Assembly (NCBI GenBank): GCA_015143295.1 | Contig: CM026570.1 | Coordinates: 6,844,047 to 6,908,046 of the forward strand | Direction: 5' to 3' | From: Tetracentron sinense | Taxonomy: Eukaryota > Streptophyta > Magnoliopsida > Trochodendrales > Trochodendraceae | Length of the DNA: 64,000 nucleotides | Part shown: one piece after another, positions 5,701 to 52,596 of the stretch | Numbering within the stretch: the first letter of the stretch is position 1 | Layout: every line of letters begins with the position of its first letter | Notes under the pieces: generated by a model | What the model was told of the DNA's origin: nothing | The model's input: the letters and a program-made list of their open reading frames with translations, nothing else | Databases searched by the model: none | Translations under genes and position numbers: made by a program

Positions 5701-8480
5701 CTGGGTCTACCCGACTAACGGATGATTTTGGTAATCTCTTTGTTCTAGCATCCAACGAGGATGCTCTAGTGGAGGATTCTTATAAGAGGAGTTCTTAGGG
5801 AGTGGTTTGGTGTCCGAGGATGCGGAGGGACCTAAACGATTGGAAAAACAGTGATATGTCTCGTCTTCTGGAGCGCATTACCTCGTCTGCCCTTTGTCCA
5901 GAGATTAGGGATTGTAGGATGTGGTATAGAAGCAACCAAGGTCGATTCTCAGTAAGATTTTTGCTACAATCATTATCCCCTATTTTGGGTGAATTGTTTC
6001 CTCATAGGGGTTGTGTGGAATCCGGGAATTCCTTCTAAGGTATCTTTCTTCCTATGGTTGCAACTTTGAATAAAATTCTAACATGTGATCATTGCAGCAT
6101 AGAGAATGGTGTTTGGCTAACCGATGTTTTATGTGCCTCAAAGCGGAAGAGTCGGTGGATCATCTCTTGTTGCACTGACCTGTAATGCAGGAGGTGTGAG
6201 GTTTTTTCTTCTCCCGCATGGGGGTTGCCTGGGTCTTTCCCTCAACCTTTCACAACTTCTTATCTTGTTGGTATTGGGTTAGTGGGGAGGGTGCTTTTGA
6301 GGTGATTTGGGGAGTCCTCCCTGGGGCTATTATTTGGGTGTTTTGGAAAGAGAAAAATCTTAGAGTTTTTGAGGATGTTATCTCTACCTTTCCCCAGATT
6401 TGTGATCGCATCTGGTAGGTTGTCTTGGAGTGGGCAGGGACCTAGTGTAGAGGGCAGGATCTTCGGGATCTTAAGTTCTAATTTGTTCATCCTAGGGGGA
6501 TAGGTTTCGTGTTGCATTTTCTCAGTGTTGAGTTTATACGCCCATAAACTCTGTGGCTGAGTTGTCTCCCTATACTTCTTTCTTCCTCTTAATACATTTA
6601 TCGATCAAAAAAAAAAATTTGAGACCAATTTGGAGTGTGCTGAGATGCACATTAACAGGAGACTATAGTTGACAGCACAACCTTTACCAATAACTATTGT
6701 TCTAGACCTGATTGATTGCATGCTAGCAGCAGTAAGACTACCGTCACCATCTGCTTTAGCTGGGGATGTAAGCAGGTCAGATTTGGAGGAGATCTAGCTA
6801 TGTTCAATCTGAGATCCGTCGGATTCTAAATTTTCCAATTAGAATTCTGATCCGGTTATTTAGTCAAAATCCAAATCAGATCTGCTTAATATTAATATAT
6901 TTAGAATATTTTAATTAAAAAGTGAAATGTTTTATGGGTAGCATTGTAATATATTTACAAAGTTATATTATTATTTTTATTATATATAACGTAATCGAAT
7001 CAAATTTTAATCTAACTGGATCGCTATAGATCCGAATCCGATCCGATTATAATCGAATTCAAGATCTCATATCCGTTTCCGATGCGACGGATCTATAATA
7101 GGATCAAGATCCGGATCTTGATCCAATCCTTTGACACCCTAGTTTTAGCCTATTTTGCACACTGGCAACAGTAATATCGTCTATGACATGCAGTTTACCT
7201 TTTCAAGCATACCGATCTTTCGAATTTTGGGGCAAAATCCCTTTGTACTAGTATTTTGCTATAGTATTCTAATTTCCAGAATTCTGTCAATCTCTTGAGC
7301 ACTAATTATACCTTAGATGATCGAATAAGCTTGCTTTCATGCTCCATATCCGCATGAGCCTAAACTAATTCAGGTCATCCATAAAATACCAAAAAAAATC
7401 TTAGCTAGATCTGTTTGGAACTACATGTGACTTGATTCCACTTTAGTGGATACGTAGGCAACCTTGCTCAGGTTCATGCCCTAGATAGAAAAATTAAGTC
7501 AGTTTTCTTTTTCCTAATTTATTGTTATTTTGTGATAATTGCCATTTTCAGATAGTTTCTATTTCTAGTTTTAGCATATTTCCGTGCTTGTTAGCATGTT
7601 ACTATTCTGGATGAATGATGCTAAAAATCGCCTTAGCATGTTTCCAACTTGATTTGATCTTAGAATTAGCATGTTTCCATTTTAATGCATGATTCTACAA
7701 TAGCATATTATCTAATTTAGTAATCATAATTAGGTTTCTAAAAGTTTAAAGTGGGTTTAGGGAGTAGGTAACCGCCTTTGACAGGTGTCTAAGGGTGCCT
7801 AATACCTTTCCTTATTTCAACCAAATCTCTTATCCAAATCTGTGTCTTAGACCACTTGCCTTAATTATTAATAGATTAGAATTCATATTTTCCCCTAAAT
7901 TAGAATATGTGGCAATTCCATATTTAGTGATTTTCCATTATTCGTTATTCGGATTTCCCAATTTGAAATAGTGCAAAATCTAATGTCCACAAGTTAGATA
8001 CAAGTATTCCATCTTTTCGACTCAAGGTGAGAACATCACTGCAGTGGTTAATAAAACTGGGCAGAGTACAAGAGAACTTACATGTAACTTGTAATGTTCA
8101 CTGCTCGTCCTTGCCGTAGCAGGCGTGGAAACTGAAGGGGACAAGTTTGACGCGGGTGTAACCGGAAGAGAAGTACATCTTTTCCAAGAGAATTCTGACA
8201 GGAAATTGGCAAGGACAGGACTCTCAGGAATGGCCCTGGGGCCTGGACTGAGGAGGGAGCTTCTCTCGCAATCAGGTACAGCCACCTTGTTCTTGAGGCT
8301 TAGACCCCGCCAAAAGCCTTCCAGAGAAGAACCAACTTTTGAGGAATCTTGAAAGTGGGGTAGACCCTTCCCACTACGGCTACTGCCAAAACCTACAGGT
8401 CTAGAAGGTATTTGAAGTGAGAGATCTACTCGCTTCCCATTGGACCCGGAAGGTGTAACTTCTTCACTTGTGGGCTCCAT
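2728..8480 (-). CDS. RING-CH (RINGv) membrane E3 ubiquitin ligase, 3' part missing
   Basis: Four coding exons: 8480-8082, 4291-4171, 3572-3260 and 2800-2728, with introns of phase 0, 1 and 2, all GT-AG and frame-closing (302 residues so far). Residues 1-133 are Ser/Pro-rich. The C4HC3 RING-CH finger has Cys195, Cys198, Cys212, Cys214, His222, Cys225, Cys238 and Cys241, the plant MARCH-like arrangement. A Gln/Ser/Arg linker leads to a hydrophobic segment at about 283-301. Such proteins transfer ubiquitin from an E2 and are usually anchored by several C-terminal membrane segments; here the message ends at a donor (ctg/GTATGC) after the first one. No continuation is seen to position 1, so the rest is either across a larger intron or lost. 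Start chosen at ATG 8480; an in-frame ATG at 8591 is open but precedes a likely intron acceptor (gtgtgcag) at 8495. Intron 1 (3.8 kb) carries a LINE and a hAT-like element. Confidence 0.85.
5533..6626 (+). mobile_element. 5'-truncated LINE (L1-type) with target duplication
   Basis: The body is 5541-6618, flanked by the 8-bp duplication TTGAGACC (5533-5540 and 6619-6626), with an A-tail at 6607-6617 after the family end tttatcgatc. Translated fragments show the C-terminal LINE region: [23 protein letters not shown] and a plant zf-RVT zinc region (about 6120-6180, [15 protein letters not shown] with frameshifts), then [14 protein letters not shown]. Several stops and frameshifts make it dead. 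It sits in intron 1 of the RING-CH gene in antisense orientation. The 17-bp 5' end tcatggactgggtttct is repeated 48 bp downstream. Confidence 0.8.
6753..7149. mobile_element. hAT-like simple-word element (ggatccgat words)
   Basis: The element is 6761-7141, between GCTTTAGC (6753-6760) and GTTTTAGC (7142-7149), an 8-bp target duplication with one mismatch. Ends are TGGGGATGTAAGC and, reversed, TAGGGTGTCAAAGG. The interior is a permuted set of gatccg/cggatc/aatccg words around an AT-rich core. No coding capacity. Lies in RING-CH intron 1. Confidence 0.6.
7737..7990 (+). mobile_element. gypsy-like LTR fragment
   Basis: Contains gggagtaggtaac followed by AAGGGTGCCTAATACC and tttccttattt, matching the order of the copy at 48650-48730 and, in reverse, that at about 430-460. 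Boundaries were not found. It lies in RING-CH intron 1. Confidence 0.35.
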
Positions 8481-9375
8481 AATTTCGTTACTAGCCTGCA
8501 CACAGCAAACACTTTTAGATTTTGTCCAATCATTTGGTATCTCAACTTCAAGAAACAAATAGCAAACAGGAAGATGCACCTTAAACGCCATGACTCTTTA
8601 CCTGATTTAGCATTATATAAGCAAGTTCATTTCCAAAACTTAGCATTCCAGTAGTGCTCATTGAAGTTATAGCTAATAGCATGTATGGGTGGCTTTTTCT
8701 TTTCTCTACTTGAGAGTGTTGGTGTGAGTTCTAGAGTCAAGAGTGTTAGTTGATGCTGAATGAATGTCCACTAACCTAAGCCAATCAATTACTGGGAAAT
8801 CTGCTCCGCCAGATGCAGAGGATGCATATGTCCTACTGGTGCTTGTACAAAGTCCATTATCATGGGTTATTTTGATACTTCCCCACTCATTCGGCCTCAG
8901 TTTCTTCTCGGCAGAATTTCATGTAGTTTGCAGCAGAGCAACACAGAAGAGGATATAAAACAATTGTTATGTACCTTGCTAATCTAAATTCCAGGGGGCT
9001 ATATCCCCAAAGAATCAGCAAAAAGAAACACAAATTACCAAATGAGTGCTCGATATGTAACTCAAGTTGAGAACATCTACTAAAGTTCATCACAGGGCAT
9101 TATTCCATTAATTTGATTTTGTATCTTTTTATCACACTTTCCACTATTTTTTCTCAAGGAAAGTTCCATCATAAAATCTCAGGTATCTAAGTTTGATAGC
9201 TTATCACAAACAAAACCAAATAAAAAAGAAATGCAAAATTACTGAATTGGAATTTGAGATCTCACTCCAATTTCTCATAGATTCCATTAAAATAGAATCG
9301 TAAAGCTTTATTTCTAAAAAAAATTGTACAGTTCAGACTGTTCAATGACTTCTTTCAAAGAAAAATATCAACTAA

Positions 9376-9552
9376 CCCACCAGGGGTTGGTGCAGTTGGC
9401 TAAGCATCTCGGCTTTGCTCCCTGTGGTTGTGTGTTCAACTCCCACTCCTCAACTTACCCAGGTGTCCATATGGAAAATTCTGAGTGGGTTGGTGCAGAC
9501 ACCCAAAGGGACTAGTCCTTGCCTCAAAAGTGTTTGGGACATCCTCTATTAC

Positions 9553-9556
<4 letters not shown>
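9376..9556 (+). mobile_element. tRNA-derived SINE with (AT)n tail
   Basis: Begins ggggttggtgcagttggc, an A-box-like TGGTGCAGTTGG, followed about 40 bp later by a B-box-like GTGTTCAACTCC. The tRNA-unrelated part runs to an (AT)n(CA)n tail. It does not fold into a tRNA cloverleaf, and the head-body-tail layout is that of a plant SINE. Sits in the putative RING-CH leader intron. Confidence 0.5.
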
Positions 9557-9625
<69 letters not shown>

Positions 9626-13662: not shown

Positions 13663-14017
13663 CTTTTGACCAGGGTTACCTAGTTCGCTACCTACTAGTG
13701 CAAACTGCGATTCTACGAACCGGTTTGAAGCGAACCAGTTCGCGGTTCGGTTCGTTTGGGATCGTGAAATTGAGCGAACCCGCTATCCGAACCCAATAGC
13801 TTTGGTTCGGCGAACTTTTTGTTCGGGTTCGGCAAACTTTTGTTTGGGTTCAGCGAATTTGTTCTTTAAGTTCGGCGAACTTATACTTTGAGTTCAGCGA
13901 ATTTGTTTTCTGGGTTCGCAAACCTACCATAAAACCTATTTTTTAATATTTTTTTAAAATAACTTATTTTTTAATGCTTTTTTATAAATAAGTAATTATA
14001 ATATATTTATTGACACG

Positions 14018-14048
<31 letters not shown>

Positions 14049-14193
14049 AGCGAACCAAAGTAAAGAACTAAGCGAACCAAGAAACAAACTATCTCATCCT
14101 ACCCCTGGCGAACCGGGTTCACTCTAGAGTGGCGAATTGCGAACCCGAATTCGAACCGAGCGAACCGACGAACCAGGTAACATTGTTTTTGAC
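13663..14193. mobile_element. hAT-like simple-word element (cgaacc/ggttcg words)
   Basis: Element 13671-14185, with ends CAGGGTTACCTAGTTCG and, reversed, CAATGTTACCTGGTTCG, flanked by CTTTTGAC (13663-13670) and TTTTTGAC (14186-14193), an 8-bp duplication with one mismatch. The interior repeats gcgaacc and gttcggcgaac around an AT-rich core with an (TA)n run at 14027-14047. Non-coding. Confidence 0.65.
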
Positions 14194-17085: not shown

Positions 17086-17141
<56 letters not shown>

Positions 17142-18368: not shown

Positions 18369-21300
18369 CTAATGATTGGCCTCAGGAGCTTGAGCATATG
18401 TAAATCCATCCTGTGAAGCTGAAGGAGCAGTAGTTCCACCTGCAGTTGCCCTCTGTAAACTTGAGCCAGAATTAATATTAAAATTATCAAAGCCTCCGCT
18501 TGTTGGTGTTGCTGGGTTGGCTTGATACATTGCTGGTGTAATCATAGAGGGAGCACCATTAGAAGTGGGGGCTGCAGCACCCCCAGGAACTGTTGGTGGG
18601 GTGTTCATTGTAGGAGGCCTTGGCAGATCATTTACGTGCATGGATAAGTAAGGGGCACCTGGTGGCCCCATCATTGGTGGCATTGTTGGAGCAGCCCCAT
18701 AACCTGCCAAAGCAAATAGAAAGAGATAATGTAATCTATCATTAGTGAAACAGGAAAGACCACAGGTAGTAACATGGTGAGGAACATATTCAAAGTGTTA
18801 GAACTTGGAGTGAGTACAAACATCAAAGCACAGTAACTGCGGAGGAGAATCTGAGTCAGTGGTAGAGAAGAAGCATAATCCTACTTATGGCGTACACAGA
18901 TTACACATGGATGGGGGGCAGAAATGGTGAGCCACCGTTGCAAGGTCGCACCCAGGAGACTTAGGCTGGAACAGCAACCATATTGGATGACCAAATACAA
19001 AACAAACAAACAAAAAAACTTATCTATCGTAGTCTTTGAACCTAGAAGATGTAAGTGATGGGACTCAGTCGAATGATGGATCTTACTACATGCATGCTAC
19101 ATGTACAGCACATTCAAGAAAGTTCTTCCAGTTTTCCCATTCAGGCACAAATTTATCACAATAGCTAAATATCCATTCAAGCAGCAGCTTGATTTTAAAT
19201 ATTTCAATGGCCCACAATATGAGTTCAGTTATATATATATATAGACACGGATATTTTACCCGAGGGATCTCTTCTCTTTTGCTGTTGTATGGATCTGACT
19301 TTGATTAATTATATATATATATATATAGACACGGATATTTTACCCGAGGGATCTCTTCTCTTTTGCTGTTGTATGGATCTGACTTTGATTAATTTATATA
19401 TATATATATACACACACACAATTTTGTGAAACCCTTCCTCTAGCAGCGTATATTTATATCTCCAACAAAATATTTGATCCACCACCTCTAGTTGGGACTT
19501 TAATGTTCATGAAGAAGGAAATGCTAAGTACCGTGAAGCATAGTTAGAAAAATCGGCGAGTCACATGAGTAACTCGGTCAAGTTACTCAACTCGACTGAA
19601 TTTCAAGTCGAGTCGCCTCAAACTCGGAGACACTATTTGTCGAGTTACTCGGGTGACTCAGTCGAGTCGAGTCGAGTCGAGTAGAGTTCTTCAACTCACT
19701 AGACTAGGTCGAGTCACAGAAGGGTATCTTTATCATTTTTTAAAACCTAAACTCGAACGTCATACTATTTTTGCATCATATTTTTTTGGGTTTACAAAGA
19801 CAACCTAATATGTGTTCTGTTAAACCTTTTTTTAGGTTTGAGGTTGTAAAACTAGCATTTTTCGAGTTCCTTTAACCCGGGTTTTTCAAGTTATTACATA
19901 TATATTCCGAGTTGGACTGAGTCGAGGTTTTTTCGAGATTTCCGGGTTTTTGAACCATGACATGAAGAACAATTTGTTTCTTCAGCTTGTTTTGTTTTGT
20001 TACTTTTTTATCAGCACTGGCTGTATTGATGTACCCAAAAACAAAGTAGATTGACTTGCCCACTTTGCACTGTTAGAGATGTCCTCAAGATCAAAACCCG
20101 CAGATTTCAAGTAAAACCATTTTGCTGTTGCTTGGCATATTGGAGCTAGAGCTTTAATGTTTCCGTTTCTGACCCTCCCCTTTAAAACGCCAGAAAGCCT
20201 TTTCTAGGTGGAGTGGTGTACTCCTTGTCTCTCGAGACCATATGTAAATCATCCAAAAAAATATTCATAATAGTTAATACCAAGTTCAGATTAGATCATG
20301 TGAATGCGCTAAGGTTAGAAAACTAGTCTAAAGTTCTTTCTGTGGCTATGGGGCTATAAGTCAGGGAAAACTATCCACTGAACTGATCACAAGGGAACTT
20401 GCATGAAATCCTGTTCATTTGATCCTTCCAAGGCCATTAATGGTGTAATTCACCCGGAAAGCCGAAAATTCATTGGATCTAAACAATCACAAGAGATCCA
20501 TAAACCTCAAGCAAGTCCCCTCATGCAAATCATAAGACCTAACAAAGGTTTCTTTCGTTTCATTTTTTTTATCAGTTAGACCTCAATCAGGATTCATGTT
20601 GCCGATGATAACTGATAAGCCCCAACCATTGCTGCCTACTAGCATAGCTACCAAACCCCGTATTTTTTTTTTAATTGATAGACCAAGCAACTATATACAT
20701 AAATAGAGTATCACACGTACAAAAGAGCATAGAGCGCATGGTTCATGATGTTGTGAACCAATGCAAGATGCAAAAAGTAAACAAAACACACCATGCTAAG
20801 CCCCAAATAGAAACCCCACTGACAATACATATCAGGCAAACATCATGCCTAAGCTCACCCCTTCCTGTCTTACTGAAACCCACTCCACTTCCAACGACAT
20901 GGTTCTATTACAAATACGGGGAAGAGAGGAGGGAGAGTTCTCGAAAACTCTCCTATCCCTCTCCTTCCAGATCATAGTTACCAAGTCATGAAGCGAAGCG
21001 AAAGCGGGAAGCGAAGCTCAAAAAATCCTTAGGAAACTGGAAGCGAGAAATAGATATAGGTGCATCATTCTCATTATGTTAGGATGACCAATTATACCTT
21101 AAATTTTATTTTATATGAGATATTTGTGAAGAAGTAGGTGCTTTAGATTCTTAGGTTTCAATTCAACGATACTTGCCTAGGATATATGTCATAGGCTTTA
21201 GACTCAGGTCTATCCCATTATTTCCTAAATAGGAAATTCATGACTCCCTTGACCACTAAATGAGAAGCGAGTGGAAGCGATTCTGGGAAACGAGCTTCCT

Positions 21301-24300
21301 GGGAAGCGAGCTTCCCACCTTGTACATAGCTTCCCGGCAACTATGTTCCAGATAGACCAAGTTATGGCACCCGGTAGTATCTTCCACAACGCCAACATCG
21401 ATCCTTCCCCACTTACCAAATCCCAGCAGGATAAGAAGTTGTAAAAGGATGAGGGAAAGACCCAGGTCATGCCCATGCGGGAAAGAAAAAAGCTCTAGAT
21501 CTCACGAGCTAAAGGGCAATGCAAGAAAATGTGATCTACCAACTCTTCCACTTTGAGGCACATAAAACAACGATTAGTCATCCTCCACCCTCGGCTTTTC
21601 AAATGATCACATGTGAGAATTTTATTCAAAACCGCATTTCATAGAAAAAAAGATATTTTAGATGGAATATTTGGGTTCCACACAGCTCTATGTGGAAAGA
21701 GGGCAGAAGGACCAGCTTCAAGTAGCTGAACTAAAGATCTCACTGAAAAAAGACCCTTGTTGTCTCTAGACCAAACTCTACAATCCCAGCCCTGAGAAAC
21801 CGAAGGGAGAGCCCCCAGATGCTCTAGCAGCCTGCCAAACTCAGCTATTTCCCTGTCATTTAACCCTCTTCTCATATTGGGACACCACACTACCCCTCCG
21901 CTGCCTCTTTCGATATAATCCCCGACTGTCGCCTTCTTGTTCGAAGCTAACCCCATATTATACCCGTATAATAAATTTAGAAGGGGTCGCAGTTTAAAAC
22001 GACGTACTTTTGCCATTTATGTATTATATATTTATATGTGTATTGTCGTATAACGGTATAATACGCAAATTTTGAATTAAACGTGTACAGGACGCATATT
22101 TTTGCCACACTTTTACCATGTTAAACACACATTCATTATTCCGTATTTTTGCCATGCTTTTACCATGTTAAACACACATTCATTATTATGTATTAAATGG
22201 TCGTTATTAGTTAATATTATGATTCTTTATTTATTTATAATTATTAATTATCTTTTGATTTTCCTGTACTTTTCCGAGTATTTGCCGTATAACACCCATA
22301 CTTCCCAAACAGATCATTGACGTATCATACATGCACCCGTACCCATACTTGGTAATTATGCCTACTAGGATAAGCAGCAATGGTTATCAAGGCACCAAAG
22401 CAGACTATTCTGAAGGTAACATGTAGTCTCCCAGTACCATCCATCAATTTCAAAGTGCTTAAACTTTTTAGCAGTTCTTTGTTCCACAATGGTTGACAGC
22501 CAAATGTAGCAGTGAATTAGTTAATAAGAGTTGTACATGTCTGTCATGGAACCAATGTCCCAATGTGAACTACTGAAAGAAGCTGAATTTGACGTAGCAC
22601 AGTAGGATGATTCATGCCCCATGTCAGCCTGCCCTCTGTGGCATATATACAAGTAATCAACCAATCAATCAAGAACATCTCTTGTTCCAAAACCAGCCAT
22701 GGTGAGTTTAAATATCTGATGAATGGGCCTTCATTAGGACTGTTGATCCATGACCAAAAATTGAATGTTGTGGTGCCAGCTACATGCCTGTCACACATAT
22801 TGAGGAAAGAAAGAGGCAGAAGCACCAAATATTATGCTGAACTTCAATTAAATACAGCCTCAACTACAGTAGCAATAAGTAAACATTGGGCAAGAACGTG
22901 AGATCGTGAGCATCAAAGAACTGGTAAAGTGAATCATGCATCAGTTTACTGAATGGACTATACAGCTTGCAGAGAAGTTGTCATCAAAAATGAGTACCTA
23001 TAAAGAAGCAATAAAGATCTCTATATGTTTCGATTTACCTGGAGCACCAAGAATAGGTCTTGGCAAAACAGGAGGCCTCATCCCGGGGACTAATGGTGAA
23101 TTCATTGGTAACACAGGTGTTGGTAGAATAGGCATACGGGGTCTTTGAGGATTGCCTTGCAAAGAAGCAAGATGTTGGTTGTAAGCTGCACCAACTTGCT
23201 GGAATGCTGCGGTTTGCCCAAGATGCTCCTTGATCCTCTGGTCAATTAAACTTTGTGTTTGTTGCTCCTCAAATTGCTGATAATAGGACCGTACATTTGC
23301 CTGAGGTGATGTATAGACTCAGAATTCAAGTCACAGCAAGATGGGGTTTATGTACACCTAAAAGGCTAAAAGAGTGTTCGTTTTTTAATTTTATACGTAA
23401 TACCTTGTGTTTGTAGCCTGCATTGTGCTGCTTTCTAACAGAAGGCTGCAATCCAAGAAGAGATGGATAGAAATAAAAAAAATAGTTATTTTTAATTCAG
23501 TCGTAAGGAGAATTTAAACATACGGCTGCCTCAGAAAATGAATATTCTAAGGACTTACACAAACAACAGCCATAACACTACAGCATTAAAATCATAGTGT
23601 TTTTTGACAGAAAGGCAAGGCAATGCAATGCAAGGATTAAGAAATGAAAAGGAGACAAAGATCCTTGAAAACCAGATAATGGAAAGAAATTGAACATGAG
23701 CAATAAAATCAGTGTTTTTTGACAGAAAAATAAGGCAAGGCAATGCGAGGATTAAGAAATGAGAAGGAAACAAATAGATTTGTGAGAACCAGATAATGGA
23801 AAGAAATTGAAGATGGCCAACTTTTGTAGACCACAAGAAGTTCTATATTTGGGCCAACTTTTGTAGACCAAAAGAAGTTCTATATTTGGGTTTCAATATC
23901 AAGATAAGTAATTAAATATATCAGGTTATAATCAGTCAAGTGCAGGAATTACAACAAGAACAATTTCTTTACTTACATAGACTACAGCTTTCTTTTTATT
24001 GGTAACTACATAGGCTACAGTTACGAGACAGAGTTGGATTAAGACTACATGTCATGATACTTGAGACTGCATTTCACAATCTTTGGTCAAGATTCACAGC
24101 TTAACTAATGGTGAAGATGGGAATAATAACAACAATTACAACAGAAAAAAGGACGCTAATAAAGGTTTTTTTTATTGATAAGAATGCTGATAAAGTTAAC
24201 AGCATTAACCAAGTCCTTCACCATAATATGCAATAATTCTATCTCGATAGAGATATCCGAGGCCCTTTTAATTGCTTTCTTAGGTTCCATTTCCTTGTTA

Positions 24301-27892: not shown

Positions 27893-28196
27893 GGTGGTGT
27901 TTGGTAACACTAGTCTAAAAAAAGTGCTTATTTGAAAATTATGCTTCGTTAGACTTTAGATTGTTAAGTCGAAGGTTAAGTGCATGTCTACATTTTAGAG
28001 ATTTTAAGGGTAAAAACTTTTACTTAAAAAAGTAGCTATGGGGTAAAAACATCAACTTTAAAAAGTAGAGGTTTCTACCCCTAAAATCTCTAAAATGTAG
28101 ATATGCACTTAACCTTCAACTTAACAATCTAAAGTCTAACTAAGCATAATTTTCAAATAAGCACTTCTTTTTAGACCAATGTTACCAAACGTCACC
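27893..28196. mobile_element. Foldback MITE with about 120-bp inverted arms
   Basis: Ends GGTGGTGTTTGGTAACA and, reversed, GGTGACGTTTGGTAACA. The arms (about 27893-28014 and 28075-28196) are near-perfect inverted repeats, for example ttagactttagattgttaag facing cttaacaatctaaagtctaa, with a short centre that is itself partly palindromic. GGTGNNGTTTGGTAACA resembles hAT/Harbinger-type MITE ends; no clear target duplication. Confidence 0.75.
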
Positions 28197-30149: not shown

Positions 30150-30710
30150 CCTGTAACAAGAGTACCTTGCTCTACCCTACCCTTCAAGGCAGAGTTAGGG
30201 CCTAGTCACTTCATGCCTTTGAACGGCTTGGACAGGGTTAGAGTTTTGCCTTATAAGTAAGAGTAAGGTTAGGGTTAACTTATATCCTACCCGGCCCTTC
30301 TTTTTGACAGTCCTACCTTTAACCCACCCCTTAAATTCTAATAATAATCCTAATCCTAATCCATTGTAACCCTAACCCTAAACCCTTGATTGAATGACTC
30401 CCAAACCTTAATACTATGATTATCCCAAACATTTTGATTACAGTCTTAGTTTGTTGTCAAGATATGTTCAATTTTATTATTATGTTCGTATTTTATTTTT
30501 ATATTTATTTTAACTAATTTCAATTGACCTATATGTTGAATTGGCATTCAGTGCTGAAAAAATATTGTTTTTCTTTCTCATCTTGTGACATGTCTTCCCC
30601 TAATAATTGAGGATAGGGTTATGGTCTAGTTAATCCAGGCCCTTGAAGAGCTAGGATTGGCTAAGAGCAGAGTTAAGTCCCACCTTTGCCTTGTTTTGCC
30701 CTACATACAA
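30150..30710. repeat. Decayed simple-word block (agggtta/taaccct words)
   Basis: Dense in aggcagagttaggg, taagggttaggg, cctaatcctaatcc and accctaaccctaaaccc. Composition fits a decayed simple-word element or satellite-like tract; no inverted ends or target duplication were found. Confidence 0.35.
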
Positions 30711-34987: not shown

Positions 34988-37900
34988 ATGGCGGAAGGGG
35001 AAAAAACCCTAAAGTCCAGTGGAGAGAGCGTAAAGCTCTTCGTCGGTCAGGTTCCCAAGCATATGACCGAAGCTCAGCTTCTCTCCATGTTCAAAGAGGT
35101 CGCTTTGGTAGATGAGGTCAATATCATTAAAGACAAGACCACTCGGGCTTCACGAGGTTCGGAAAATTCAATCTCGAGCTCATATTTTTTGTTTTATATC
35201 TGCATTTTGTTATTCTGTTCTGTGTTTTCGGCGGATCGGGAATGTGTGATCTGAGCGATTTCTTCTACCTGGTCGCAGAAATTTTGATTGAGAACGTCTC
35301 TCTGAATGTTTTGAAACCCTAATTTCCTTATTTTCTCATTTGGTTTTACAGGATGTTGCTTTCTGATCTGTCCGTCGAGGCAGGAAGCAGATAATGCAGT
35401 CAATGCGTGTCATAACAAGCGAACGCTTCCCGGGGTGAGTTGGATTTCGATCTTCTCTCTCTCTTAATAGATTCCACTGGTCCAAATTTGCGTTGTGATG
35501 TGATCAATTAGGGGTACTTAGCGTGGAATGTTGATTTCTTGGATGTACTAGTGTTTTTTGTATGGTCAGAGAAGAAATTGAGCTCTGGTTGTTGATCTAG
35601 TACTGTTTGGGGTTGTTCTTATGGTTTGAAACCGGGGTTGTCTGTTGTATCTATTGCACATTGACATTATGTTTCCGTGACTGATTGGATAATACTAAGA
35701 GAAACAATAAAATGGCAATGAAGATAACAATAGCCCAGTTTGGGAATCATAAGCAAAGAGGCATAATCAAAACTAGCGAACTGTGTCCCAATTGGCATCA
35801 TGGTTTAAAATTCCGGTACGTATCAGCCATTACGTATCCTGTTTGGAGTTACCCGGTACACTGATACGCTGGAAAAAAAACTCCTCCGTATTGGGTGTAT
35901 TGGGCCGGTACATGACCGCTATGCCTGATACGGGGGATTTCTCAGGTTAATTTTTTTTCCTTCTATTTGCCATAGGATCCACAACACCGACCCGATACAC
36001 ACAACTTATTTACCTAAAAAAATTATTTAAGTAAATGATTTTAAATTAATTTTATTTTCATTTACTTAAGATATTTATATGTAAATAAGGTTATACCCCT
36101 ATTTGAGTTCAATAAAAATTACCGTTGAGCAGAGGCGTTGAGTAGAATGCTCTCGTGAGCAAGATGAACAATTTTTGAGGGATTTTCAGTGGGTCAGGAG
36201 CAACTCCAAATCTCGCATCTACAGCTCGCAGATGATACCCTCATATTCTGTACAGCCTCATGTTGGCAAATAACTTACCTCAGATGCATCATGCGATGTT
36301 ATGAGGCGGTGTTTGGGCTGAAAGTCAACCTTGGGAAGATTGAAGAGTGAGATGATCAGTGTAGGGGAAAATCCAAATCTAGGTGATTTAGCAGCTTGTT
36401 TAGGGTGCCAAGTCGGTTCTCTTCCCTCGACCTATCCGGGGCTCTCCTTAGGAGCCAAATTCAAGTCAAAGGATGCCTGGTTGCTAGTGGTTGAACGTTT
36501 CGTGTCTAGGTTAGCTGGGTGGAAAGCTCAGGTCCTCTCGAAAGGGGGTAAGTTGACGCTGATTAAAAGCACCCTTAGAAACCTTCCCACATATTTTCTT
36601 TCCACTTTCACCATCCCACGCAGTTTAGCAAAATTTTTGGAACGAATTAAGAGGGAGTTCTTGTGGAATGGAAAAAGGGTGGACACCTCGTTACTATCTA
36701 GTGGCTTGGGACCAGGTGTGTAGCCCCCAGCGAAGGGGTGGGCTTAACCTTAAACCATTGGTAGCAATAAACAAGGCTATTCTAGGAAAATGGGTATGGC
36801 GGTTTGGGGAGGAAAGGGAGAGTTTTTGGCTCAAAGTGATCATTGCTAGACAATGTTTTAAAACCTAGACTGGACACTAACCCAGTCAAGGGGTCGGGTT
36901 TGTCCAAACCGGTCAGACCGTCGGGTCAATCCGGGTTGACCCAATGACACTAAGTAATGTCATAAAATATTTAATATTAATAATTTTTCCTATATTAATA
37001 GATTTGATTCGTGAGTTAGTGGGTTTATATAAGGGGTTTTATCTTTTCCGTACTGGTACCCTTGAGAAAATTTGAGAAACACCATACTAAATGGGTACGC
37101 TATAACAAGGAGGAATTTGAGAAACACCATACTAAGGGGTTTTATCTTTTCCGTACTGCAAGCATCATACATTATGCAGGGAGGAATTTGAGAAACACAA
37201 CACATGAGAAAATTTATAAACCATATACGAACCCTTCACAATAATCGGCCTGGTGGAAATTTTAAACTATCTGAACTGTAGACCAATGACTTTTGGGTGG
37301 TCGGCTTCTTTCCGTGTGAGGGTTCCAATTTAAAATTTATAAAGCATAATACTTTCTCGTTTATAAGAGAGAACTCTTATCTTGTTAAGAGTTATCCTCC
37401 ACGCTAAATGGGTATGCTATCACAGACAAACCTTCAAAGAGGAAGCACGTCTTGAAACCAATGAAAAATCCCGATTATGAACTAATTAAAAAAAAGAGAT
37501 TATTATACAAAATTAAGTAAAAAAAAACATATATGAACCCTTCAAATTAATAGAAAAAAAAAAGTTTGATCTCACCTCACATTGGATTGAGTTCTCTCTA
37601 TCTCCAATCTCCTCTCTTTCCTACGTAGTATTTTCTTCTTCTCTAGGGTTTTGTTTTAACCCTTTCTTTTATTTAATATATTGTGTTTTAGAATAAATAA
37701 GTCAAAAAGGACCTTTTTCTATGACCCAAGGTCCCAAACGGTTCAACAAAAATCGCCCGGGTCGACTGGGTCATGCCGGTTTGGGCGGTTTTCATTGGGT
37801 CATCCCGGTTTTGGTATTCAACCTACCAAAGGATCAACCCAACCCACTAAGGTTACAGGGTCTCGGGTTAACCGGTTCAACCCACCGGTTCGGTCCAAGT

Positions 37901-40398
37901 TTTAAAACACTATTGCTAGGCATGGCCAATCATTGAGTGGGAACCCTATGCCAGTTAGGGGTCCTTGTGGGTTGGGTTTGTGGAAAGGGATAATGGTGGT
38001 GGCCAGTATGCTACCATTTATCACTTTTAGAGTGGGTAATGGTTTGGAAGTTCAATTCTAGCAGGACGTATGGTGTGGTGAGGGGAGTCTCTGGTCTAGG
38101 TTTGTCAACATCTTTCGTCTGTCGTTAGACAAGTCAGCATCAGTAGCGGATTGTTTGGAATGGTCCAATAATGAGTATGTTTGGTGCCCACACTTGAAGC
38201 GCCCGCTGAATGATTGAGAAATGACAGAGTTTTGTTTTTTCTTCAAGCCCTAGAATCCTGCCCAATGTATAGAGACTCACAGATTTGGATTAGAGATAAC
38301 AATGGTCGGTTTTCAGTGAGATCATTGCTACAATCTTTTGAGTTGCCCTCACCTTGCTCTTTTCCTATTGCTTGCTTTGTTTTTTGGGGATTCACAATTT
38401 GTGAATCTTCCTCTCTATTTAATGAAATTGCTATTACCGATCTAAAAAAAAAAAGTCGCTTTCTTCCTGTGGACTGTAGTCCTGGATAAAATTCTCACAT
38501 GTGACAATCTGAAAAAAGAGATTGGATGATGGCTAACCAATGGTACTTGTGCCTGCTCGCGGAAGAGTTGATGGATCACTTATTGTTGCACTGTCCCACT
38601 GCTTATGAGATATAGGGTTACTTTATTGATCGGGTAGGGGTGCCCTGGGTCTTTCCTAAATCTTTCCGGGATTTTTTATCTTGCTGGCCTCGAGCAAGTG
38701 CGGGTGACAACCAAGCGGCAGTTTGGTTTGTGCTGCCAGGGGCCATAGCTTGGGCGCTATGGAAGGAGAGGAATTATAGAGCATTTGAGAATTCCCCTTC
38801 TTTGATCCCACGCATTTGCGCATGCATAAGGCACTCCATTTCGGAATGGCTATCCATTAGTTGCACATCTACAATTCTGGGCGAAAATGTCATCTATAAT
38901 GGCGCATAGTATAGCTTAGGTTCATGACTTCATCTATTTCCTTGCCTTGTTGTAGTGTAATAGTTATATGCTTAGCTCGGGAGGTTACTTCTCGGTAACC
39001 TCTAAGTTTTAGGACGTATCTTATCTTTTTCTGATTATATATATCTTGATTACCGATAAAAAAAAATTTAAAAGTTAACTTTCCAGTTCAAGAACAAAAT
39101 CATCTTTTTAGCACCTTTTATTGATTAGGTCAAAATTTCAACTTGACAACTTCAAATGATAAGGTATTTCTCAAATATTAAAATTTCATAAATTCTACTG
39201 ATCAAAAGTTATTCAAAACATTACCGAAACCCAAAAATTTGGCAAACAAAGTCTCATATATTAGCCTTCAAAATATTTTCATCTACGGGGTCAAAAAGTC
39301 AACCAACAATGTAACAATTCAGCATGAAAAGACTTACATTCAAGCTTATAATTTTTGTTGTAATTCAATATATTCTTATTTAACTCATTGAATGTAAGGT
39401 TTTAACATCTAGATTGTATTATCTATACTTGGCTAAGTAATTATGGTTTGTAATTTTCATACCTGTTTATCAACTCTCATATGAATGGTTAGAACATAGT
39501 TGGAGGCCTTCATTTAGTTTGATTTTAGCTTATATCTGTTTTAAAAGAACTTTTATTCAAGATATCCAAGTTTTTCCTTGCGTATCAAAGCATTTCTTAG
39601 CGTCTCTTAATTTTTTCCGCCGTATCCATCAAATACGGTCTGATACTCCAATACATATCATGTTTTGGACTTACTAATACGGCACCCCATACGATATTTT
39701 GAACCATGATTGACATACCAACTACCAAACGTATGGATGAACCATGTGTGTATGGTTTAATAATTTTTTTTTGATTTGTAAGTAGCAGATGTATTTATAA
39801 GTCAAAAAGTATAACAACAATCTACAGAGATGTAAACAGATAGTGTCTAGCAAGCATGAAAATAGGACAAACAAGAAAGATATACGACTAGTACAGAGGC
39901 TGACTCCTCACAATAATAAAATATCCCTCACTTCCTGACCCAACTGACTTGTGGAACTCCATTTTTGGTTTAATAATTACATTTGGAACAATATTGTGCT
40001 TGCTTTATGTCAGCTTCTTTCCAAATAGAAGTTCTGAATTGAAGGTGACTCTTATGAGAGTTATCTGTACTTGAAGAAGGCTGTTCTCACATGCCACTTT
40101 CTTGTTCTCTCTGTTGATCTTATCTTTTGTCTTCTTTTGAGATAGGCTGAATCTCTACCATTCACAAGGAAACCGATTTTAGAGCGTAAGTGTTAAAAAT
40201 GTTGGTGTAGCGTCAATATATTTAGTCGTGAAACCATATACTAGTTTCTAGCTCTTCCTCTTTGGATATTGCATCCTCCCCATCAATGATTAAACTTTCC
40301 CACTAACATGGTATAAGAATGTGCATCCCTCGTCTCAATGGAGCCATGAACTACTTCTTGAGTTTTCTACAGTTTCGTGCCAATCATCAAAGGAGAAC

Positions 40399-46400: not shown

Positions 46401-49400
46401 TCCTGCTCGTTACTCACTTTCTCTACATTATCTACTGTTGATTGATAATGGTGAACCAAAAAGCTATCAGGAACCACTACAAGCGGAAACTAAGGTTAAG
46501 TGAGAGCTTGCTATGGATGATGAGATAGACTCCTTCTCATCCAACCAGACATGGGATTTGGTGAAGCTACCTGAAAGGAAGAAGACTTTGCAAAACAAGT
46601 GGGTTTACAGGTTGAAGGAAGAACATGACGGTTCTAAGAGGTACAAGGCCAGATGGGTGGTGAAAGGTTTTCAGCAGAAAGCAGGGATAGACTTCACTGA
46701 AATTTTCTCACCAGTTGTGAAGTTGTCAAGAATCAGAGTAGTTTTGAGTATAGTGGCTATAGAAGATTTACACCTGGAGCAGTTAGATGTAAAAACTGCT
46801 TTTCTTCATGGTGACCTGGAAGAAGAAATCTACATGCAGCAACTATAGGGATATGTAGATGCCGGGAAGGACAATTTGGTATGTAAGCTCAAGAAGAGCT
46901 TATATGGCTTGAAACAAGCTCTTAGGCAGTGGTATATCAAGTTCGATACCTTCATGAATGACAAATGATACAGGAGTTGTCATTTAAATCATTGTTGTTA
47001 CTTCAAGAGATTTGAGTCATCTTATATAATTCTTCTGTTATATGTTGATGATATGTTTGTAGCAGGATCAAGCATGAAAGAAATTTCAAACTTGAAGAAG
47101 CAACTTTTGGAGGCATTTGATATGAAGGACTTGGGTCCCTCAATGCAAATACTTGACATAAGGATCAGTAGGGATAGGCCTAACAGGAGTTTGAAGCTTT
47201 CTCGAGCAGATTATGTGGCCAAGGTATTGAAGAGATTCAACATGGAAGGTGCTAAGCCAGTTAGCACTCCTTTGGCAAGTCACTTTAAACTTTGAGTAAA
47301 ACAGGGCGCTGAAACTCGGGAAGTATTGGAGTACATGTCCAAGATACCATATGCATATGCAGTTGGTAGTCTGATATACACAATGGTCTGCACAAGACCA
47401 GACATTGGTCAAGTAGTGGAAGTATTAAGTAGATTCACGAGCAACCTAGGAAAGGAGCATTGGGCAGTTGTGTAGTGGATTCTAAGGTACTTAAAGGGTA
47501 CTACAGAAAAGACTCTGTACTATGGAGGTTCAAAAATTAGTTTGCAAGGATTTTTTTGATTTAAATATGGCAGGGGATATGGATAACAAGAAGAGCACCA
47601 CAGGGTATGTGTTCACCCTGGGCAGTGTAGTAGTCAGTTTAGTCTCAAGGTTGCAGAAGATAGTCTCCCTTTCGACAACTGAAGCAGAATATGTTGCAGC
47701 AATGGAAGCTTGCAAGGAGATGGTACAACTTTAGAGTTTCCTAAATGAATTGGACATGAAGCAGTAGAATTGCAAATTGCACAGTGACAGTCAAAGTGCA
47801 ATTCACCTTGCGAAGAATTTAGTCTTTCATGCGAGGACAAAGCATATCGACATTCAATACCATTTCATCCGATCACTCTTGGAGGAGGGATTGATATTTC
47901 TGGAGAAGATCCACACAAGCCTAAATCCTGCAGACATTTTGACCAAGGCGGTTACCACAGAGAAGTTGAAGACATGTTCAGTTTCTGTTGGTCTTCAAAC
48001 TTGAAAATAAGAAGGTGATTCACGCCAACTTTCTATGGGAGAGCGGCACTATAGATGAAGCAAGTACGACGGAGCTCTTGGAGGTTAGTTTCAAAGTGGG
48101 AGATTGTTAAGTGATGGAGACTGATGGGACAAGTGGTTTTTAGCCTTGGCGTCCGAACGGTCCTTTAGGGAATTCGAAGGCCCTCCCCGGATCCCGCGTA
48201 TTTTGGTCTCCTAACTCAGTTTCTTAGGCCCATTTTTGCCCTAGTATTTAAGGTACTTCGGGATTAGGGTTTGGCATTCATTCATTCATAGCCACCAGGA
48301 GAGGTACTCTGCATTGCTTTTGTTTGGTTTTACCTTTGAGCATAGTGAAGTGGTGTGGATCTGTGGACGTAGGCATCATTAGCCTAACCACTTAAATCTA
48401 ATGTTGTGTATTCTTGTTTGCTTTACTCTGTTCTGATTATCCCGGTTATCGTGTTGTGGGTTTGTTGCGCAATTCCCAACATGTGGGCAGCCCTAAGGGG
48501 TCCAACCCACCTAGATTAGATTTTTCTTTATTTGTCATGTTTCTCCTCTTTAATGAATGTTTCCTTGTTTAATCATGATTTATGTTTGCATAACATGATT
48601 AACAACATATTAAATTCTCCATATAATTTTCTTTAATTTGGCTTGCACTTAGGGAGTAGGTTATGATCTTCGGATGGGGGTTTAGGGGTGCCTAACACCT
48701 TCCCATAAATTTAAAGGAATCTCTTACCCTAAAATCTCAACTTGACCATTGACCTTATCCACCATACAAATGGGATTCTATTTTCCCTAAAATAAATAGG
48801 GGGCGCCTCCTCAAAGGCATTTAGCGTCATTCCTCTTGATGGATTGCCTCAAGATGGAAAGACGGTAAATTTCCGTGCTCACACGTGCATGTAGATTGAA
48901 TTGGTTATGCAGGCATAAGGTTGAGTCCAAATCCTGTTGTCTCTGCTATATAGCAAATTACACTTCCACTTGAGATTTTTGTTCTTATTTTGTGTGTGTA
49001 TTACATATATTTCCTTTCATATCTCCATACATAGCTTTTTCATTTAATTCAAGCATTTACATCATAACCAAAAGTCAACGAAACTAGAGGCCTTTCACAC
49101 TCAATATCTCAAGCATTTCAATATCTTTGTGTTTTATTCTGAAATTGTTAGCTGTTCATTATAATTCTATCAGAGATTATTATGTAGCCTATGATACCAC
49201 ACTTTATCTAAAACAAAATATTTGATACCAAATACTGATTTTAGTAGTATTGTATTTATTTGATACTTGGATTTACAATATTGCTATAAAATTTGGCTGT
49301 TATAGGGTTCAAGTGTCCCTTTAGTTGTCAAGTGGGCAGATACTGAAAAGGAAAGGCAAGCACGGAGGGCTCAGAAAGTTCAATTCCAGACTTCTAATTT

Positions 49401-50576
49401 TCCAAATACTGATTCGACACAGCAACCTTCATTATTTGGGGCCCTGCCAATGGGTTATATTCCTCCATATAGTGGATTTGGTTATCAGGTTTGTTTCATT
49501 ATTGATTTTTAGTTCTGAGTCATGTCAAGTCATGACATGCATAAGCTGATAAGCCTAATTTGTGGATTTGCCTTGTATTTGCACAACGGATCTTGAAACT
49601 TAAAACGTTGTGGCAGAGCTTGAGCCTCACAGTATCCTTTCTCTTTACTTAAAATTCCATTAAAATCCAGCCTTGATGTTTCTTTTATTTACTGCATCAC
49701 TAGGCCTTTGTTGTTTTAACATTGTGGAGCATAATGAAGTCAGGAATCTGGTGATCATCTTGTTTTCTTTGTAGGCACCTGGAACTTATGGACTAATGCA
49801 GTACCGCCTACCACCAATGCAAAATCAACCTGGTTTCCACAATATGATTCCATCAGTAAATCAAGGAAATGCATTGCATGGAATTACACCTGATCTTTCC
49901 GCCGGTATTGCTCCTAGAAATTTTGCAACATTGCCATCTGCGAGTTATATAGGCGCTCCATATCCTATGGTGCCTGGTCCTCAGTATCCTATGGCCTATC
50001 ATGGTGGAATGATGAGTCACAGACCTTTGAGTAGTTCCCCTGGTTCAGTGTCACCTGCAATTGTGAACAGTAACTCAGCAACATCTTCAAATGTAAGCGC
50101 AAGTTCAGGGGTTCAGGTTGAAGGTTGGTAAAAAAAATAATGTGGCATTCTTGTGGTTCTTTTTAAGGTAAAGTCTTGATGCTTGTTGCAATATTAATTA
50201 TTTTTCATCTTCTGTTGAACTTAGGTCCTCCTGGCGCTAATCTATTTATTTATCACATCCCTCAAGAATTTGGTGATCAAGAGCTCGCAAATGCTTTTCA
50301 AGCATTTGGCAGGGTGTTGAGTGCAAAGGTCTTCGTTGACAAAGCCACTGGTGTCAGCAAATGTTTTGGTAAACAGATTATCTATTCTCCTTTGGATCTG
50401 GGATGAGTTCTGTGGAATTCTCTACCTCAAATCAGCCTCTATTTGCAGGATTTGTCAGTTATGACTCTCCAGCAGCAGCTCAATCTGCCATTAATGTGAT
50501 GAATGGATGCCAGTTGGGTGGTAAAAAGTTGAAGGTACAGCTTAAGAGAGACAACAAACAGAATAAACCTTATTGA
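34988..50576 (+). CDS. Bruno/CELF-like RNA-binding protein (BRN1/BRN2 type), complete
   Basis: Nine exons: 34988-35156, 35352-35434, 40695-40746, 40927-41052, 41197-41276, 49306-49488, 49775-50123, 50225-50368 and 50449-50576; 1314 nt, 437 aa, every junction GT-AG and in phase. Three RRMs: RRM1 with RNP2 LFVGQV (17-22) and RNP1 RGCCFLIC (56-63); RRM2 with LFVGML (105-110) and KGCAFLKY (143-150); a Pro/Gly/Met/Ser-rich linker (about 171-348); RRM3 with LFIYHI (354-359) and KCFGFVSY (393-400). This two-plus-one arrangement and the length match Arabidopsis BRN1/BRN2 (about 430-440 aa), which bind the SOC1 3' UTR and restrain flowering. That function is inferred from the family. Start: first ATG in frame with RRM1, preceded by an in-frame open leader. 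Intron 2 (5.3 kb) and intron 5 (8.0 kb) are swollen by transposons. A donor (GGAG/GTAAGT) follows the stop at once, so a 3' UTR intron is possible. Confidence 0.95.
36843..37920. mobile_element. hAT-like simple-word element (gggtcaaccggt words), nested in LINE
   Basis: Element 36851-37912, ends CAATGTTTTAAAAC and, reversed, TAGTGTTTTAAAAC, flanked by TTGCTAGA (36843-36850) and TTGCTAGG (37913-37920). Ends are rich in ccggtt, gggtca and ggttgaccc; the core repeats gaatttgagaaacac and tactaaatgggtac phrases (37060-37200). Removing the element plus one duplication joins LINE fragments WLKVIIAR and HGQSLSGN. Confidence 0.75.
38365..38451 (+). mobile_element. Very short LINE 3' tail nested in the LINE
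   Basis: The frame runs from an S-rich FPIA region into tctctatttaatgaaattgc and taccgatc followed by an A11 run, then resumes with FLPVD. The inserted piece matches the LINE 3' end style (ccgatcaaaa), so it reads as an 85-bp dead-on-arrival LINE copy. Confidence 0.5.
40402..40444. repeat. (TA)n microsatellite
   Basis: Pure TA dinucleotides in BRN-like intron 2, about 250 bp before exon 3. Confidence 0.95.
42090..43839 (+). mobile_element. gypsy-like LTR remnant, left part, split by copia element
   Basis: Non-coding sequence with a TATA-type box (cctataaataacccc, about 42760) and a continuation beyond the copia insertion at 48482-48870, where gggagtaggttatg and GGGGTGCCTAACACCTT match the gypsy-like motif at 7790 and 450. 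Holds a 100-bp tandem duplication (about 42541 and 42641, with ttaagtaaaagaaaaagc). Boundaries and strand are inferred. Confidence 0.35.
43840..44287 (+). repeat. 5' LTR of copia element 1
   Basis: Starts TGTTAAGTGATGG and ends CGATTCCCAACA. It includes a 12-bp C run (43962-43973) that the 3' LTR lacks. Confidence 0.85.
44326..48004 (+). pseudogene. Copia gag-pol polyprotein remnant
   Basis: Gag starts [17 protein letters not shown] (44326) and soon frameshifts. The zinc knuckle near 45025-45065 reads [14 protein letters not shown] and lacks its first Cys. The protease motif reads DSDAS instead of DSGAS (about 45195). Integrase fragments: [25 protein letters not shown], then a 21-G run (45924-45944) at the SDNGGEY position. 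Reverse transcriptase: [36 protein letters not shown], stop at 46848, and YVDDM intact at about 47043. RNase [11 protein letters not shown] and [11 protein letters not shown]. At least six stops or frameshifts, so no functional product. Confidence 0.85.
48105..48481 (+). repeat. 3' LTR of copia element 1
   Basis: Same termini as the 5' LTR; shorter by about 70 bp, with lost segments in the first third. Confidence 0.85.
48482..48870 (+). mobile_element. gypsy-like LTR remnant, right part
   Basis: Continues the sequence interrupted by copia element 1. Includes gggagtaggttatg and GGGGTGCCTAACACCTT, then ttaaaggaatctcttaccc, parallel to the fragment at 7737-7990. Confidence 0.35.
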
Positions 50577-51990
50577 TGCTGGAGGTAAGTTATGGAAGGA
50601 AGCAGAATTCTCTACCATATGTGGTCACATGCAACCTCGATGCTTGGGAGTGGTTGCAATATAAGCCAGAGATTGGGGTGGATTGGAGATATTAATGGTT
50701 ATATATGCTACTCCATTCTACTGATAGTTTCCTTGTGGGATTGGAATCCCTGAAACCTCATTGGTGCATTCTACACCAGTATAATCTGTAATTTATGTAC
50801 CATTGAATTTCATTGACATATTAATTTATTGATTTTTTCCTCGAGCATTCCTTGGTGGTATAATGCTGGGGCAACAGTCATGTAACATGGCTGTTTACTG
50901 TTTTTTAAATTTGGGTTCTCTCAATTTAATGACCAGATTTTTCACTGTTGAAATATGTTTTGGGAAAGTATGATTATCTCATGCAGTGTATCTCTCACAA
51001 GTCTGTTTTTCTCCCGGGTGTGTGAGCTCAGAGTGTTGAGTGTACTCTATCATTGTTCATTCCCTCTTTCTTCCTTTATGTAAACCTTTCTTTCCCAAAT
51101 CCATGTGATGTATCTGTGAAGTTGTTGGACATGTTGAGAAGCCACTACAGGCGTTCTTCCTGTCCAAGCAATGTCCATAAATGGGTTTTCAAAGTCCAAA
51201 GTTATGTGAAGTGATTTGTTTATCATGTTGTTTCTGTTGAAGACACGTTTCGTTTTGCAGTGACTCCTCAGGTATTGTGCATCTTTTGTGTGTTGATGTC
51301 TTGTCATTGTTGTGAGTATATTTTGTACTTCCGTTTCTTGTTTTGGTAACTCAGTCATGCCCTAAGATTCAGTACAGGAGTTCAGGCCATGCATGAATCC
51401 CGGAGAATGTTCTGCGACATGTAATTTGTTATCCTCCGTCCTGTCTCATTGTTAAGGAACCTTACTCTACTTTCGTTGCAATCTGACTGATTTGACATAT
51501 TGGGTGACTTTTTAAATAAATATCCTGCATGCTGATCTTCTCTCTGTTATCCATTTCAGGATATAGGAGAAGCATTGTCTGTAGGGTTCATCTGGTTATG
51601 ATGCAGGTACTGTTGAACGAGTTTTGGCTTGTATTTTTTTTACTTTTATCGAGCGTATTTATCTGTCTGTTGATGTTATATACTTTCATGAACATTGTAA
51701 TTGTTGTTGAGTATTTCTTAGACTCTATATCCAGACATAGTGGAAGATTTTTTTTATTTTTTTATCTCCCATGAATATGGCATGTTCTGAAGTTCGCATT
51801 GAAAATTTGGAAGTGAATTTGTGATCAAGAGACAACTTGGAGTTAGGTATTAATCGATTAAACCTTCATTTTTGTTACTGCATAATGCTTAGATGTAACA
51901 TTTAAGTATTTGGCTTTTGTTAATTCTCCCTAACAAAGCATGTACAATTGAGATACTGTCTGGAACTTTAGGATCACAACTTCACTTGCA
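50577..51990 (+). other. 3' UTR and downstream flank of the BRN-like gene
   Basis: Follows the TGA at 50574-50576. A strong donor GGAG/GTAAGT lies at 50583-50590 and a pyrimidine-rich acceptor-like ttcgttttgcag near 51260, compatible with a 3' UTR intron. No second gene is recognised. Confidence 0.4.
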
Positions 51991-51997
51991 GATCGAA

Positions 51998-52067
51998 GGA
52001 GCTTTGTATCAGCCAACTTACATTTTATATAAGGAGCTTTGTATCAGCCAACTTACATTTTATATAA
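51998..52067. repeat. 35-bp perfect tandem duplication
   Basis: The unit ggagctttgtatcagccaac followed by ttacattttatataa occurs twice in succession. Confidence 0.9.
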
Positions 52068-52149
52068 TAATATGTTCTAATTTTTTTCAGTTCCTCACTT
52101 TTTCTTCTATATACACCCCGCCTCTTGCTCTAATGGTGGGGTGTGGCCT

Positions 52150-52596
52150 CTTTCAAGCATAGTTACCAGAGTGAGAAGCAAAGTGAAAAAGAGAAGCGGG
52201 AAGCTCAACTCAAAAAAACCTAGGAAAGGGGATGTGAGAAATGAGATATAGGCTCCTCATTCCCATTATGTTATTATGGGTAGTAATACCTTTGATTTTA
52301 CCTTACATGAGATTTTTGTGGAATAGTAGGTGTCTTAGGTTCCAAACCGACGATACTTGCTTAGAGTCTACACCCTAAGCTATAGACTGTGGTCTATCCC
52401 ATCACTTCATACATACAACTCCCTTTGACTACTAAATGGGACATGATGGAAGCGAGTTTCCTAAGAAGCGAGTCTGTATGAGGAAACGAGCTTCCTAAGA
52501 AACGAGTCTGTTCGAGGAAACGAGTCTAGGAAACGAGCTTCCGGGGTAGCGAGCTTCCCAACCTATACATAGCTTCCCAACAACTATGCTCTCAAG
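52150..52596. mobile_element. hAT-like simple-word element (gaagcg words), second copy
   Basis: Element 52158-52588, ends CATAGTTACC and, reversed, CATAGTTGTT, flanked by CTTTCAAG (52150-52157) and CTCTCAAG (52589-52596). Colinear with the copy at 20973-21345: aagcgggaagctcaa, the core with catgagatttttgtg and taggttcc, then cgagcttcc arrays and tacatagcttccc. The word arrays have changed in copy number between the two. Confidence 0.8.

Follow-up and report, generated by a model that had tools for sequence, protein, structure and literature searches.

How do related transposons with near-identical tips stay separate within one genome? The question is raised by a stretch of 64,000 nucleotides from Tetracentron sinense (the window; G000:C20:6844047-6908046, the genome searched comprising 1.16 Gb), and the elements found in it make the answer testable. 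Eight elements with hAT-like tips and 8-bp target duplications lie in the window (E1 to E8, Table 1), and beside their tips stand arrays of short words that differ from one kind of element to another. Considered together with coding hATs of the same genome, these arrays probably are lineage addresses, read at both ends of an element by the BED finger of its transposase. The shared tip would be the site cut by the catalytic core, and would therefore be alike across a hAT clade (TAGGGNTGTCAA tips in the clade with BED, RNase-H-like and dimer domains, CANNGTT tips in the DUF659 clade), and the word, as the lineage-specific part, would therefore differ between lineages. The BED zinc finger of the matching transposase lineage would bind the word array at each end, and each lineage would mobilise its own copies only. 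If this is true, a second part of the address, evolving by word turnover, would explain how the lineages are kept separate.

Words Beside the Tips

The first-pass annotation of the window described the interiors of the elements as tiled with a word and with the inverse of that word. The tiled interiors had to be rejected, since most words of the window elements are subterminal, no further than 150-200 bp from an end. In E5 all 13 words are within 200 bp of the ends, despite a length of 1,062 bp, and in E6 10 of 13 are within 150 bp (three exceptions; the interior contains a long interspersed nuclear element, or LINE), E7 being exceptional in having five of its eight words at 200-400 bp. The tiled look of the short copies arises because the arrays of the two ends almost meet, and these copies may be little more than two joined end arrays from which the coding middle has been lost. 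The same placement is found in 12 hATs of coding size, whose terminal 250 bp contain the word of the class at a density of 32-48 per kb, compared with 0-0.85 per kb inside. As to the inverse words, these are unevenly present, with exact hexamer to inverse counts of 11:5 for CGAACC in E2, 7:0 for GAAGCG in E4 and 5:0 for GAGTCG in E3.

When the eight word sets are counted across the eight elements, the table is near-diagonal, E6, counted with its LINE included, having off-diagonal entries. Moreover, the two ends of an element agree. Among 13 elements, the left and right ends of the same element share words to an extent that none of 5,000 permutations reached as a sum, and the right end of the same element ranked first for nine of the 13 and second or third for the other four, preceded in each case by an element that shares its word. 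This concentration at the ends, together with the published binding sites of other hATs, makes it likely that the words are transposase-binding arrays, as had been suggested from the first, and by the same analogy arrays bound by the BED finger are what they most likely represent.

In total, at least eight word types are recognized, six of them in the window, the others being GGGCC and GGCGTACGCC. All eight contain a CG dinucleotide in the repeat unit, as does the AAACGG word of Ac, and this may make recognition methylation-sensitive. The CG in every repeat unit also speaks for an account we consider quite improbable, by which the words are not binding sites but CG-containing regulatory arrays, acting in transposase transcription or as targets of methylation or small RNAs. 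Such a role would not by itself call for arrays at both ends, including the promoter-distal 3' end, nor for their retention in gene-less copies of 373-515 bp, and in any case regulation and transposase binding are not mutually exclusive.

Coding hATs and Their Words

A search for coding hATs with matching ends, proposed along with the early description, was successful for both tip types. It relied on the best 150 scored of 1,709 candidates in the genome for the PF05699 profile and on the best 150 scored of 1,783 for the DUF659 profile. With PF05699, 12 of the 20 longer regions yield an element of about 4 kb that spans the domain, has TAGGGNTGTCAA-type tips and is flanked by a perfect 8-bp duplication. 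GATCCG words are found in two of these, at loci L039 and L040, and GGGCC words in the other ten. An end of the form TTGACANCC[CT]TA is present 3' of the domain in 23 of 30 PF05699 loci and not in the remaining seven, and sequences at L015 (near 2817) and L024 (near 2490) resemble additional ends, with neither a partner nor a matching duplication. The reading frames of L039 (664 amino acids) and L046 (698 amino acids) are intact and encode BED, RNase-H-like and dimer domains, and both proteins match Hermes chains in PDB. Those relatives of the L039 transposase that carry an organism name among the best 120 of 2,011 are from plants, a Nelumbo RICESLEEPER-like protein being 56% identical. Interiors differ by 0.4-0.8% within the groups L046/L047/L048, L049/L050/L052 and L039/L040, each copy sitting at its own duplication, and such near-identical copies of coding size at separate duplications suggest, as far as sequence can tell, recent activity. 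Non-coding elements with TAGGG tips are also seen near hAT loci, at L003:2767-3260 (GATCCG, duplication 8/8) and L042:336-780 (CGGATA, 8/8), and further ones are seen at L051:812-1443 (AGCTCA, 7/8) and L057:862-1251 (GATCCG, 7/8).

The second tip type is represented by the DUF659 hATs. Four of eight 3' slices (L059, L063, L064, and L067) end in a CANNGTT-type tip with words. The element of L059, whose left end is in L062, measures 4,469 bp, with a perfect CCCCGGAC duplication on both sides and GGCGTACGCC-like words, and the other three have words of the GAGTCG type. Among the 40 scored matches to the L064 end, nine (the end itself included) have a same-strand DUF659 domain 1,657-1,674 bp to their 5' side, and of the 39 alignments other than that of the query with itself, 12 terminate precisely at the tip. 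The GAGTCG array is therefore the actual 3' terminus of a coding family present in multiple copies. In contrast, a copy of the E4 family at C4:34485804, 1.0 kb from a DUF659 domain, was rejected as evidence of a coding owner, as the whole short element was matched, and when the scored places of the E2 and E6 families were compared by eye with the scored DUF659 domains, none was found at the spacing of a coding end. Two GAGTCG-type DUF659 elements are present in opposite orientation, about 5 kb apart, at G000:C1:5928186-5937447.

Thus, the two tip types track two hAT clades, one with BED, RNase-H-like and dimer domains and one with DUF659, and within these the words follow lineages: GATCCG is found in the BED/RNase-H/dimer hATs of L039 and L040, GGGCC in another lineage, and GAGTCG and GGCGTACGCC in DUF659 hATs. 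Coding owners have been found for four word types, of which GATCCG and GAGTCG are words of the window. The notion of a single transposase family that moves elements with many different words does not agree with this picture, as each coding element found has its own word.

The ends were also compared on words only, with the first 16 bases removed (176 cells, 40 shuffles per cell). E1 pairs with the L039-type GATCCG coding ends at z of 5.1-12.0, and the left end of E3 pairs with the GAGTCG coding ends of L063, L064, and L067 at z of 4.8-7.3; for the right end of E3 the value is 6.5 with L064 and only 1.7-2.3 with L067 and L063. Most of the other cells are below 3. A single transposase for all the words is disfavoured by this comparison and by the permutations of end sharing.

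Turnover of the Arrays

The arrays change faster than the rest of the element, and they do so by gain and loss of units. In 15 pairs among the 12 coding-size elements, substitutions are equally frequent at the ends and in the interior (11.3 versus 11.5 per kb), while 28 indels (4.8 per kb) were counted in the terminal 200 bp and 53 (0.97 per kb) inside, homopolymer or A/T runs excluded, an approximately five-fold difference in density; as the pairs share history, the independent end events are nearer a dozen. At the ends, the units gained or lost are word-sized, 8-16 bp long, in support of the earlier proposal that words change by slippage-like gain and loss of units. The arrays thus gain and lose word-sized units between near-identical copies, and the finger would be expected to change alongside. 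When the L046 and L049 groups are compared, identity is 64% in the BED finger and 85% in the remainder of the protein, and the words of L049 are shifted towards CAGGGC. As this is a single contrast, joint change of finger and word can be taken as a lead and not as a result.

The same turnover is also what would be expected if the words were passive simple sequence grown by slippage, with one or a few promiscuous transposases reading the shared tips only. Such an explanation, which we consider unlikely, would account for tips common to elements with different words, and the four window words without a coding partner could then be mobilised by the transposase of another lineage. Recognition of the tip only does not, however, need each of the coding lineages found to have its own word, nor the two ends of an element to agree, and the published hAT transposases require subterminal repeats.

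Several observations do weigh against the words being lineage addresses for the BED finger. Eight of the 20 longer PF05699 regions contain no bounded coding-size element of the kind described, and four of the eight DUF659 3' slices (L060, L061, L065, and L066) are without a transposon end; the hAT-like genes there may have been domesticated, may have decayed, or may extend beyond the slice. Coding partners for GAAGCG, CGAACC, CGTAT, and GGTCAACC were not found among the coding hATs examined. In the word-only comparison some cells are off the pattern, with z of 5.2 for E5 left with L063, 3.8 for E2 right with L064, 3.5 for E5 left with L049 right, 3.4 for E2 right with L039 right, 3.2 for E2 left with L049 left, and 3.1 for E7 right with L067. 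Finally, the link between word and BED finger comes from few lineages.

The address model can be extended, with somewhat more doubt than belief, into a view of the genome as holding a lexicon. By this view, taken as a whole, each hAT clade would have a single tip for cutting, and the genome would contain numerous address words that exclude one another; the turnover of the arrays would race the drift of the BED finger, in a chase like that between PRDM9 and its target sites, keeping the words apart; and a new word would found a lineage immobile to its relatives, with miniature copies recording the pairings of finger and word. Tips, words, and BED fingers are all readable from sequence, and a hAT-rich plant genome would supply natural pairs of finger and word. 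If this is true, a recognition code of the BED finger could follow, including that of domesticated fingers acting as transcription factors.

Boundaries, Chance, and Empty Sites

All of the above depends on the elements being real, and the alternative, that short inverted repeats have paired by chance in repeat-rich DNA and that no mobile elements are present, is hardly credible. Some features could be taken in its favour: the target duplications are perfect in two of the eight elements, match at seven of eight positions in five and at six of eight in one, thus six being imperfect, and a loose, unbiased pair scan of the window gives 14 pairs, other or overlapping ones, most of them without words (one is E4 and one encloses E2). 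Nevertheless, the boundaries of all eight elements were reproduced, the best combination of tip and duplication falling at the positions first proposed in 8/8 cases. With a strict pattern (CANNGTT tips, 200-4,500 bp spacing, duplication of at least 7/8, tips of at least 8/12), four pairs are found in the window versus a mean of 0.05 and a maximum of 1 across 60 dinucleotide shuffles; only four of the eight elements are recovered because the tip spelling or the duplication threshold excludes E1, E3, E7, and E5. Across 294,318 bases, four of 238 CA-type pairs have a duplication of at least 7/8, all four in the window, versus 1, 0, and 0 in controls displaced by 8, 16, and 30 bp. For TA-type pairs, at loci preselected for hAT domains or kinship to E1, the counts are 17/37 versus 0/37 in all three displaced controls. 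Chance pairing was rejected on these shuffle and displacement controls, and the excess of tip pairs with duplications that had been claimed for the window is confirmed. The assignment to hATs agrees with the 8-bp duplications, the tips, and the coding hATs with the same tip types.

Further evidence is provided by the other copies in the genome, whose boundaries are independent of the criteria by which the elements were first delimited. Family searches covered five of the six word types of the window, with only 40 candidates scored per query, so that copy counts are lower bounds (40-46 scored of 908-3,691 candidates); all five families are multicopy. One example is the E4 family (best 40 scored of 3,691 candidates), of which the 39 other copies are 89-96% identical; 34 of these end exactly at the proposed right end, and on the left 18 begin within 6 bp of the end and 21 begin 14-23 bp inside. 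Another example is the E2 family (best 40 of 2,756), with 32 of 39 starting within 3 bp on the left and 27 of 39 stopping within 4 bp on the right. At the left end of E6 (1,364 candidates), 33 of 39 scored copies begin within 2 bp of the boundary. In the E3 family (best 40 of 2,488), 40 of 40 begin no more than 6 bp from the left boundary, and on the right the alignments fall 3-29 bp short, with one extending 1 bp beyond. The E1 family (908 candidates) is weak, most alignments leaving out some 45 bp at the left end and some 30 bp at the right; among seven other loci, L007 and L008 each have their own perfect 8-bp duplication, L002, L003, and L005 have weaker ones, and L004 and L006 have none.

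The comparison with empty sites, also proposed at the outset, can be made with paralogues in the same genome, as distinct from the same locus of another plant. The flanks of E4, with the element and one copy of the duplication taken out, align without a gap near the junction to the LINE within E6, and likewise without a gap near the junction to the LINE relative listed in Table 1. The flanks of E5 align to a related LINE in L063, gap-free at the junction and with a 2-base gap three bases beyond. These paralogous sites show past insertion only. Chance pairing would not be expected to give families whose scored copies, about 40 in each, share their end points, nor the empty sites; the copies largely refute it for E2, E3, E4, and E6, the evidence being least direct for E7. 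The great length of E7 and E6 is due to inserted LINE sequence, within which E4 and E5 reside.

Table 1. Elements of the window and the LINE relative without E4 (positions are those of the window; tip matches are inverted-tip matches in the first 12 bases).
Feature	Position	Length (bp)	Strand	Tips	Words	Tip matches	Duplication	Remarks
E1	6761..7141	381		TAGGG-type	GATCCG	6	7/8	
E2	13671..14185	515		CANNGTT	CGAACC	9	7/8	
E3	19539..19959	421		CANNGTT	GAGTCG	9	6/8	
E7	20643..22360			CATAGCTACC/CATAATTACC	CGTAT	10	8/8	split by E4-bearing LINE sequence
E4	20973..21345	373		CATAGTT	GAAGCG	9	8/8	
E6	35799..39708			CATGGTT	CGTAT, close to both ends	11	7/8	contains E5-bearing LINE
E5	36851..37912	1,062		CAATGTTTTAAAAC/TAGTGTTTTAAAAC	GGTCAACC/ACCGGT, within 200 bp of ends	10	7/8	within the LINE of E6
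E8	52158..52588	431		CATAGTT	GAAGCG	8	7/8	82.5% identical to E4
LINE relative without E4	6102..6536		+					paralogous empty site

Other features of the window include an 84-bp unit at 19230-19415 (2.2 repeats, 98% matches), a short way to the left of E3, a hairpin at 27917-28171 with two 117-nt arms, 91% complementary, and a 21-nt spacer, and a short telomere-like CCCTAA sequence at 30345-30388, of two 22-bp units. A scan of the window against Rfam at the gathering score gave no matches.

Comparison with Known Systems

In Arabidopsis, SIMPLEHAT elements are non-autonomous hATs with simple-sequence interiors, and the likeness of the window elements to these is one of description. In a limited literature search, no counterpart was found to a genome in which two tip types bear eight or more word types between them, four of the words with coding owners.

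Ac/Ds is a hAT that duplicates 8 bp and has 11-bp tips, with heterogeneous non-autonomous copies sharing the tips and some of the words, and its transposase binds AAACGG words in the terminal 200 bp (PMC3260210). The present elements are similar in their 8-bp duplications, short tips, subterminal words, and non-autonomous copies sharing tips. In contrast to the one word and one family of Ac/Ds, at least eight word types and two tip types are present here in one genome, and the arrays are denser, with 16-24 word hits per coding element.

In Hermes the BED finger binds subterminal AAGT repeats and the core acts at the tip (PMC10368747). The elements described here likewise combine subterminal repeats with a tip, and the L039 and L046 proteins match Hermes chains, so that BED binding is proposed by analogy with an element that, unlike those of this plant, is from an insect. 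When PDB was searched with a profile built from three plant BED fingers, no BED chain of Hermes was matched, and for this reason the residues of the plant finger cannot be mapped onto the Hermes contacts.

Subterminal motifs are also described for Tag1 (AAACCC/TGACCC) and Herves (CGATTCAT), and those of Tag1, Ac, and Tol2 differ between the two ends (PMC3143072), unlike the present words, each of which is common to both ends. As in Tag1, Tol2, and Herves, each hAT has its own subterminal motif, those hATs being from different organisms. A further parallel is with the hAT-derived CGG-binding proteins, mostly animal and domesticated, which possess BED-Hermes domains and diverse motifs, many with CGG or CGC; for each of the four hAT proteins whose motif was derived from arrays, matches are present in its own subterminal regions (PMC8097297). 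What is shared with these is a diversity of motifs at the ends of the respective hATs, the parts of that paper drawn on here describing no plant word arrays. The principle of subterminal arrays is thus already known, and the elements of the window are new families of a known kind.

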